Origin: Promethearchaeota archaeon
GTDB taxonomy: Archaea > Asgardarchaeota > Lokiarchaeia > Sigyniarchaeales > SOKP01
Direction: 5' to 3'
Length of the DNA stretch: 64,000 bases
NCBI GenBank assembly: GCA_016840165.1
Contig: JAEOSU010000038.1
Location: 25,816-89,815 of the forward strand
The notes beneath the pieces are model-generated. The model saw only the letters and a list, made by a program, of their open reading frames with translations. It made no database searches and was not told the origin of the DNA. Shown here one piece after another: positions 5,227 through 7,541 of this stretch (position 1 is its first letter; every line of letters starts with the position of its first letter). A program made the translations under genes and the position numbers.

Positions 5227-5511
5227 ATGAATTACTGCCCCAATTGTGGAGCTAACTTGAAACATTTTGTAAATTTAGAACCAAATTTTTGTCCTAAGTG
5301 TGGAGTTAGATTAATAAAAAAAAATAAATACTGCTCAATTCGCATTCAATGTGCAATTTGCCATGAATATGTAGAAATTAATGCGAAAAAAATTATCTGT
5401 TCTTATTGTGGGAGCTCCTTCCATGAATCATGTGTTCGTAGATGGATTTTACAACATAATTCTTGTCCTTTATGTCAAAATATATATATTATTCCCAAAT
5501 CTAAAAGCTAA
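5227..5511 (+). CDS. Zinc ribbon plus RING-like zinc finger protein
   Basis: YCPNCG...FCPKCG zinc ribbon followed by CAICHEYVEINAKKIICSYCGSSFHESCVRRWILQHNSCPLC. Confidence 0.65.
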   Translation: MNYCPNCGANLKHFVNLEPNFCPKCGVRLIKKNKYCSIRIQCAICHEYVEINAKKIICSYCGSSFHESCVRRWILQHNSCPLCQNIYIIPKSKS

Positions 5512-5560: not shown

Positions 5561-5956
5561 TTAGATAAAAAAACCCTTAACAATTAGAATTGCCCCAATA
5601 TTTATTAAAATTAGTGCAACGCTTTCAATTGCTATTAGATCGATAATTCCTCCAATTAAATTGACAATGAGTCCTATAACTACTATAATTATCCCTAAAA
5701 AAAACCATTGTATTCTTCTTTTAGTTTCTCCTTCTGTTTTTCCAGTAATGATTGCATATTTGTATAAGACATAGATAAGCAATCCTACTCTGCTTATATT
5801 TACAAATGCATGCCAAATATCAGGAGTTATTGTATTGATAACTCCCTGTTCATATAACACTGGATCTGGATATGGTCTCCAGATAAAGTATCCGAAACTT
5901 AAAATTACCAAGATAATTATCATAATTCCTAAATATTTTAGATTTAATGCCACTTT
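5561..5956 (-). CDS. Membrane protein, apparently N-terminally truncated relative of the 9490-10206 product (listed ORF extends to 6028)
   Basis: C-terminal region resembles the second half of the 9490-10206 protein; residues upstream of ~LKYLGIM are antisense to the coding region of the TIR gene. Confidence 0.45.
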   Translation of the reverse strand, partial: KVALNLKYLGIMIIILVILSFGYFIWRPYPDPVLYEQGVINTITPDIWHAFVNISRVGLLIYVLYKYAIITGKTEGETKRRIQWFFLGIIIVVIGLIVNLIGGIIDLIAIESVALILINIGAILIVKGFFI

Positions 5957-7541
5957 TTGGGATTTTTCCAATATAAGAACAGTCATTATCAGAGAGATAG
6001 AGACGTTCCGTGAAGCAAAATTAACCAATAAAATCTTTGATTTAATCCCAAATTATGATCTATGTATAGTAATTCATTCAAAGGAACATCCATTATTGTA
6101 TTACCAAACAGCAATTGCTAAAGCTGCGGGCAAACCTCTTATTTTTTTGAAGGCAAAAGCAGAATCTTTATCATTCCATCTCAATCAAGAATTCAAGGTA
6201 GATTATGATCCTAACGATTTATCTGAAGAAAATGTTGAGGATATTATTAAAAATCTAATTACTAGAGTCAAAGATATTGAAATGAATGATTGGGAGGCTC
6301 TCCAACCATTTAGTTTTGAAAAGGTTCAGAAAATTAAAGATTCAATAAAAAATAATGGAATAAAAAAATGTTCCGTAATTGGACCTTTTGGGCAGGAAGG
6401 ATCAGAGATCAAGGAACATATTAACAGCGTAATTGACTATATAATTAAGCCAGGATTGAAAAAATTTGGTTTAATTCCATTTACAATTAATGATTTACTG
6501 TCAACTCTTGCTTCATCGAAACCAGGGTTACTTTCTGAGCGAAAGTCTAGATTACTATCTGAAGATACCCTTAGATTATTATCAGGACAAGTTTATAAAG
6601 CAATTTTAACAACTAATCTATGCATTGCGATCTTAACCTTCCCAGATCCATCCGTATTTTATGAATTAGGTATGGCACATTTTGAATCTCGTCCAGTTAT
6701 TAAATTAATGGATAAAGAGACCTATAAAAATTATCCTTTTGTTCTACGAAAAAAGAAAGATCTTATTCTCTACAATTATCAATATTTATCGCTAGAAAGC
6801 ATCTTTTATGACAAAACTTACACAAAACAGATTGTTAATTATATTAAGGACTTAGAAGCTAAAGACTGGAGAGTTGAGAATTTTCGATTTAAAGATCTCG
6901 TTATAAAAAATGAATTTAAGAAATATATTAAGAATATAATAGCAAAAACACATAGAGAAATAAAGTTTGACAGTTTGGTTTACAAAACAGGTTTAGAACC
7001 TTATATAGTTGAAAAATTGGTTGAGAAAATGATCCTCAAGAGAGAACTAAATGCTGAAATCATTAAAAATAAAGTAATTTTCAGACAATCTGATGTTAAT
7101 TCTGTTAGTTCAGCTCCTACTATATTGAATAGCAAAAAGTTTTTAATTTTCATTAGCTACGCAACTAAAGATGCTGATTGGTTTAAAATCAGAGAAGTTT
7201 CAAAAGTATTAACTTCCTATAATGAGATAGAAAATGTTCTTTATTGGCAAGAAGATATGAAAGATAATATTTTTGAATATATGGATCTGAATTTAGGTAA
7301 ATGTGATGTTATGCTCTTGTTTTGTTCTCCTAATGCTTTAAAATCAAAACCAGTAATAAAAGAATGGACGGCAGCTGACAGCATGGAAATACCAATCATT
7401 CCCATATTTTTCAGTCCGGACCATATACCCCCACTTTTAAAGTCTAGGTTAGGCGTTCAATTTATCCCTTTTGAGTTTGAAGAGAATGTAAATAAAATTT
7501 ATAAATTAATTATTAAAAAATGTGAACAAAACAGTCAGTAA
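5835..7541 (+). CDS. Nucleoside 2-deoxyribosyltransferase-like domains plus C-terminal TIR domain protein (true N-terminus uncertain; homologous part begins ~5970)
   Basis: NYDLCIVIHSKEHPLLYYQTAIAKAAGKPLIFL; CSVIGPFGQEGSEIKEHINSVIDYIIKPGLKKFGL...LCIAILTFPDPSVFYELGMAHFESRPVI; TIR: KFLIFISYATKDADWF...MLLFCSPNALKSKPVIKEW. Confidence 0.7.
   Translation: MITPCSYNTGSGYGLQIKYPKLKITKIIIIIPKYFRFNATFWDFSNIRTVIIREIETFREAKLTNKIFDLIPNYDLCIVIHSKEHPLLYYQTAIAKAAGKPLIFLKAKAESLSFHLNQEFKVDYDPNDLSEENVEDIIKNLITRVKDIEMNDWEALQPFSFEKVQKIKDSIKNNGIKKCSVIGPFGQEGSEIKEHINSVIDYIIKPGLKKFGLIPFTINDLLSTLASSKPGLLSERKSRLLSEDTLRLLSGQVYKAILTTNLCIAILTFPDPSVFYELGMAHFESRPVIKLMDKETYKNYPFVLRKKKDLILYNYQYLSLESIFYDKTYTKQIVNYIKDLEAKDWRVENFRFKDLVIKNEFKKYIKNIIAKTHREIKFDSLVYKTGLEPYIVEKLVEKMILKRELNAEIIKNKVIFRQSDVNSVSSAPTILNSKKFLIFISYATKDADWFKIREVSKVLTSYNEIENVLYWQEDMKDNIFEYMDLNLGKCDVMLLFCSPNALKSKPVIKEWTAADSMEIPIIPIFFSPDHIPPLLKSRLGVQFIPFEFEENVNKIYKLIIKKCEQNSQ

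Follow-up and report, generated by a model that had tools for sequence, protein, structure and literature searches.

We asked whether a single open frame in Lokiarchaeal DNA could encode both the sensor and the effector of a nucleotide-triggered NAD-depleting switch, as a preliminary description made from the sequence had proposed. The frame (positions 5835-7541, + strand, 568 aa), which was found again in our ORF analysis, lies in a stretch of 64,000 nucleotides, hereafter the window, from a genome of ∼3.6 Mb. Among the genomes compared, the closest named relative of this genome is Candidatus Lokiarchaeota archaeon YT2_053. The intact gene has the architecture NDT-NDT-winged helix-TIR (NDT, a domain resembling nucleoside 2-deoxyribosyltransferase) and the copy in the window is truncated at its 5′ end. 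The features of the locus are the following:

5561..5996, - strand: divergent membrane-protein gene without its 5′ end, of which the last ∼150 of ∼231 aa remain (DNA 71% identical to the intact YT2_053 gene, L002)
5997..6000, no strand: deletion junction with ATAG microhomology (comparison with the intact ortholog, 647 bp absent)
5997..6306, + strand: NDT1-like domain, first ∼31 residues lost, Gln in place of the catalytic Glu (HPLLYYQTA) (phmmer, profile, alignment)
6282..6284, + strand: first in-frame ATG past the junction; the product from it would be NDT2-winged helix-TIR
6360..6872, + strand: NDT2-like domain (NDT/DNPH1 fold), Glu of DPSVFYELG at 6663-6665 kept (profile, predicted fold, alignment)
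6888..7070, + strand: winged helix of PCI type, residues 352-412 (Pfam PF01399, E 1.8e-4, 22.1 bits, cut-off 22)
7146..7541, + strand: TIR domain, candidate catalytic Glu at 7362-7364 (Pfam TIR_2 and an alignment of 33 family members)

The window copy has lost its 5′ end

One intact ortholog was found, a protein of 553 aa with 68% identity in Ca. Lokiarchaeota YT2_053 (L002/L063, coordinates L063:6001-7662), whose N-terminus reads MPKCFVISPYRVNRYDQ. In YT2_053 a complete 231-aa membrane-protein gene lies ∼295 bp upstream of the ortholog and runs in the opposite direction. The DNA of the window resembles this locus up to ∼5988, where the similarity is interrupted, and picks it up again at 5997; 647 bp of the YT2_053 locus, situated between two copies of ATAG (a 4-bp microhomology), are absent from the window. 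With them the TIR gene lost ∼31 codons and the membrane-protein gene ∼85, and nothing of the intergenic region is left. That the window copy of the latter is beheaded is independently supported by its homologs in about ten other genomes, where the membrane protein is approximately full length (matching from residue 3-8), whereas the window copy matches residues 80-231 only.

The deletion junction, together with the truncated membrane-protein gene on the opposite strand, means that the first ∼54 residues of the ORF are antisense. Therefore the TTG at 5835 is ruled out as a start. The preliminary description had the gene begin there; its TIR domain and two NDT-like regions stand, but residues 1 to ∼54 are the antisense of the divergent gene, and the true N-terminus was lost by deletion. 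As the start and the first ∼31 codons are deleted, the full-length protein cannot be made in the window genome, which could yield at most the NDT2-winged helix-TIR form from the ATG at 6282.

To judge from the sequence, the window copy is probably crippled. We consider it fairly probable that it represents a decaying gene or an artefact of the MAG assembly, with the promoter and start deleted and no protein made, since the 5′ ends of both divergent genes are missing in the window genome only and the in-frame starts left past the junction are TTG at 6096, TTG at 6147 and the ATG at 6282. Against this, the frame stays open for 1.5 kb beyond the junction and has no frameshift, so that either the loss is recent or the shortened product is still in use. 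This reading is about the condition of the window copy and can hold whatever the mechanism of the intact gene.

Among the neighbours scanned (RING-type zinc finger, alpha/beta hydrolase, membrane proteins) no defence gene was recognised. The 94-aa product of the zinc-finger gene, at 5227-5511 of the window, contains zinc ribbons and a finger of the RING type (zf-RING_2, E 1.3e-9), which is reminiscent of eukaryotes.

The TIR domain keeps its candidate catalytic residue

Pfam TIR_2 matched residues 438-552 with E 1.9e-13 and 51.4 bits, above the curated cut-off of 28, and the C-terminal TIR domain of the preliminary description is thus upheld by a profile match. For residue comparisons, TIR and NDT sequences were aligned per domain. 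The Glu of the KEW motif, put forward earlier as a catalytic candidate, recurs at the aligned position in 32 of the 33 family TIR domains, and the Trp right after it is invariant in all 33. This Glu would correspond to the catalytic position of TIR NADases. Rough dN/dS values against the YT2_053 ortholog, with dS near saturation, were below 1 in every domain and lowest in TIR (0.074), followed by the winged helix (0.15), NDT1 (0.18) and NDT2 (0.27).

TIR_2 is present in 46 of 58 related genomes and has eight copies in the window genome. The Lokiarchaeal relatives of the window TIR are 35-67% identical to it (mostly >45%) and have the same Glu. Fusion partners within the family comprise a Ras-like GTPase, 19 WD40 repeats, LRRs together with the same winged helix, an SMC/RecF-like ATPase and membrane segments. 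The window's own genome encodes a Ras-like GTPase fused to TIR (L021:8853-10184), and the reverse order, TIR-Ras, occurs in a relative (L038:7488-8684). Two WD40-TIR proteins of ∼1220 aa combine 19 WD40 repeats with a TIR domain of the same family (L022:10762-14427 and L036:6620-10306). LRR, PCI-type winged helix and TIR follow one another in two further proteins (L040:14408-16891 and L052:733-2208), an NLR-like plan in which no NTPase was recognised. At L184:3306-4025 a TIR domain is followed by a phosphopantetheine-attachment-like domain.

Two non-equivalent NDT-like domains and a winged helix precede the TIR domain

With Pfam PF05014 (Nuc_deoxyrib_tr) the window protein scored E 0.17 and 12.5 bits, below the cut-off of 28.8 that an Asgard relative (L184) attains, and a direct PDB search with the single window protein as query gave no match. 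An NDT family profile, made from the domains of the window protein and its ortholog and from relatives out of viral contigs, matched each of the two window copies (E ∼5e-24 and ∼3e-46; the window NDT2 is itself among its sequences) and, in the PDB, DNPH1/Rcl (E 0.0019). By phmmer, NDT1 and NDT2 match each other (E ∼1e-3 to 1e-5) and also match Asgard proteins with canonical NPNVFYELG motifs. The predicted model of NDT2 (pLDDT 74.8, pTM 0.73) had human DNPH1 as its best PDB match (E 1.1e-5, TM 0.62/0.72), and NDT and CMP N-glycosidase matched as well. The NDT-like regions seen earlier are thus borne out by the profile, by the fold of NDT2 and by the kinship of the two copies. A SLOG identity is ruled out by the fold, as the 50 best fold matches listed are NDT, DNPH1 and CMP N-glycosidase; nor was there a Pfam SLOG match in the window protein. 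The full-length AlphaFold model, run with two sequences, was too poor for domain contacts (pLDDT 48.5).

The two regions had been described together as resembling the NDT fold. Both are present, but with the catalytic Glu replaced by Gln in NDT1 and kept in NDT2 they are not equivalent. In an alignment of 35 NDT sequences this Glu is invariant save in NDT1, an invariance that is partly built in among the relatives because the pattern by which they were gathered included the Glu. In the PDB profile alignment the YELG Glu of NDT2 aligns with the catalytic Glu of DNPH1/Rcl, which we take to be Glu93. The second acidic residue of the NDT/DNPH1 active site is Asp69 in Rcl; the position aligned with it is non-acidic in the window NDT family, and the ADL motif of NDT2 has Ile where Asp is usual.

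While right about the TIR and NDT regions, the preliminary domain list had left out the PCI-type winged helix, the winged-helix half of a PCI domain, by which NDT2 is separated from TIR. The corresponding segment of the ortholog alone matched PCI with E 1.6e-5, and a winged helix of this type is common to the window protein and the LRR-winged helix-TIR proteins.

NDT-like domains are associated with TIR or SIR2 elsewhere

The complete NDT-NDT-winged helix-TIR architecture occurs in 2 of the 228 genomes of the phylum, the window genome and YT2_053, so that the evidence from conservation comes down to one ortholog pair. The bacterial search for the fusion covered plasmids and phages; viral contigs contained no relatives of the whole protein or of the TIR domain. 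The open-access papers searched held no described NDT-TIR fusion and no paper on Lokiarchaeota with a TIR domain. TIR-NLR-type systems are listed among the systems frequent in Asgard archaea (PMC11291487), and TIR is unmentioned in PMC12988326. The parts and the link between TIR and NDT are already known; none of the open-access papers searched described the single-chain combination of tandem NDT domains (one without and one with the Glu), winged helix and TIR.

The NDT family itself recurs in other settings. On a mobilizable Pseudomonas plasmid of 9.8 kb, an NDT-TPR-S gene is followed 7 bp on by a ThsB_TIR gene, a two-gene unit (L173:2896-4542) that the papers searched do not describe as a defence system. 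NDT-TPR-S, SLATT and ThsB_TIR genes are consecutive on a Rhizobium plasmid. In one Asgard genome 1 kb separates an NDT gene from a TIR gene on the same strand, and another (L183:1694-3364, - strand) encodes a fusion of SIR2_2 with an NDT-like domain in which Gly replaces the catalytic Glu. Three independent associations link the window NDT family to NADase-type effectors. The window protein had no match in PADLOC. That NDT is repeatedly met with TIR or SIR2, in Asgard archaea as well as on plasmids of bacteria, suggests the existence of a sensor module that this defence catalogue fails to pick up in the window protein.

Two further genes were seen near NDT-like genes. A SIR2-TPR protein with a C-terminal MIT domain is encoded ∼0.8 kb from one of them (L185:5751-7625). 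Convergent with another is the gene of a 1379-aa DUF4062-TPR protein with weak STAND/NB-ARC matches (L187:778-4917); DUF4062 has been reported as a TIR-like NADase (PMC13174449).

How the intact protein might work

For the intact gene (553 aa, YT2_053) we favour an NDT-gated TIR NADase acting as a single-chain immune or stress switch, a reading to which we give about an even chance of being correct. The tandem NDT/DNPH1-like domains would bind a nucleotide-type signal, the winged helix would couple or perhaps oligomerise the chain, and the assembled C-terminal TIR domain would cleave NAD+ through its conserved Glu. NAD+ cleavage would then stop or kill the cell, presumably in defence. NDT1, having lost the Glu, is most likely a pure binding domain, and NDT2, which has kept it, may in addition break down its ligand, which would reset or tune the switch. 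We prefer this mechanism because of the associations of NDT with TIR and with SIR2 and because TIR, DrHyd (NDT) and SLOG have been grouped as one class whose inactive members are nucleotide sensors (PMC9503650). A sensor and an effector in one protein is the best-supported reading in our analysis.

We ranked the NDT-gated NADase above two alternatives. NDT2, instead of sensing, could be catalytic, a second effector that works with TIR as an N-glycosidase or NADase. Its Glu aligns with the catalytic Glu of DNPH1/Rcl, its fold matches NDT, DNPH1 and CMP N-glycosidase, and Retron-Eco1, which has an NDT-like effector, is reported to work by NAD+ hydrolysis (PMC12405507). However, the family has no acidic residue at the Rcl Asp69 position and NDT2 has Ile for the ADL Asp, NDT2 evolves faster than TIR (dN/dS 0.27 versus 0.074), and the Glu is lost in the SIR2-NDT relative; we regard a dual enzyme as unlikely. 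Still less likely, in our judgement, is a non-enzymatic TIR domain that serves as scaffold or adaptor in a Lokiarchaeal signalling network of shuffled TIR, Ras, WD40 and LRR modules. The array of Ras-like GTPase, WD40, LRR and membrane parts fused to the same TIR does look more like signalling than like one defence system, but the Glu in 32 of 33 members and the position of TIR as the most constrained domain are as expected for an enzyme.

Taking the NDT-gated NADase further, we tentatively suggest that the NDT-like domain of the window family may be an exchangeable nucleotide sensor, which in Asgard archaea and bacteria stands in SLOG's place before NADases of the TIR and SIR2 types, and that the two copies seen here, one inactive and binding, the other catalytically competent, may form a sensor and a timer on one chain. 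A single protein that unites an inactive NDT with a possibly active one and with a TIR domain allows the roles of sensor and enzyme to be told apart by point mutations. The lineage from which the window gene comes is close to eukaryotes.

Comparison with known systems

Finally, we compared the gene with systems already described. Bacterial NDT-TPR-S genes belong to the same NDT-like family as the window protein (profile E 8e-37) and adjoin a TIR gene. In these bacterial systems NDT-TPR-S and the ThsB-type TIR are separate genes, whereas the window gene encodes one chain. The bacterial NDT protein carries TPR-S, in place of which the window protein has a second NDT and a winged helix (Pfam found no TPR-S in it), and the bacterial partner TIR is of the ThsB type, whereas the window TIR belongs to another TIR family. 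One bacterial case, that of the Rhizobium plasmid, includes a SLATT membrane effector. The bacterial NDT-TPR-S genes are annotated as ‘TRAFs-binding domain-containing protein’; components of the ASK signalosome go back to bacterial conflict systems (PMC8195603).

DNPH1/Rcl, nucleoside 2-deoxyribosyltransferase and CMP N-glycosidase share the fold and the Glu of NDT2, but identity to them is 12-17%, Rcl Asp69 is not kept, NDT1 is without the Glu and a winged helix and TIR are fused on. Retron-Eco1 (Ec86) likewise has an NDT-like domain, there in an NAD+-targeting defence (PMC12405507). In contrast to it, the window protein has a fused TIR domain and two NDT copies, one without the Glu, and on general inspection no reverse transcriptase was recognised among the neighbouring ORFs. 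From the other members of its Lokiarchaeal TIR family (Ras-TIR, WD40-TIR, LRR-winged helix-TIR, winged helix-TIR and membrane-TIR) the window protein differs in its N-terminal part, and NDT occurs within this family in the window gene and its ortholog only.

Thoeris pairs the TIR protein ThsB with ThsA, a SIR2-SLOG protein (PMC11204291). We did not assign the window gene to Thoeris or another catalogued system: there is no PADLOC match and no SLOG in Pfam or by fold, and no ThsA or ThsB partner was recognised among the neighbouring ORFs inspected. What the window protein has in common with Thoeris is a TIR domain, a Rossmann nucleotide-handling domain and the NADase logic, but it is one chain and has the NDT/DNPH1 fold instead of SLOG. 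The Asgard SIR2-NDT fusion has the same plan as ThsA.
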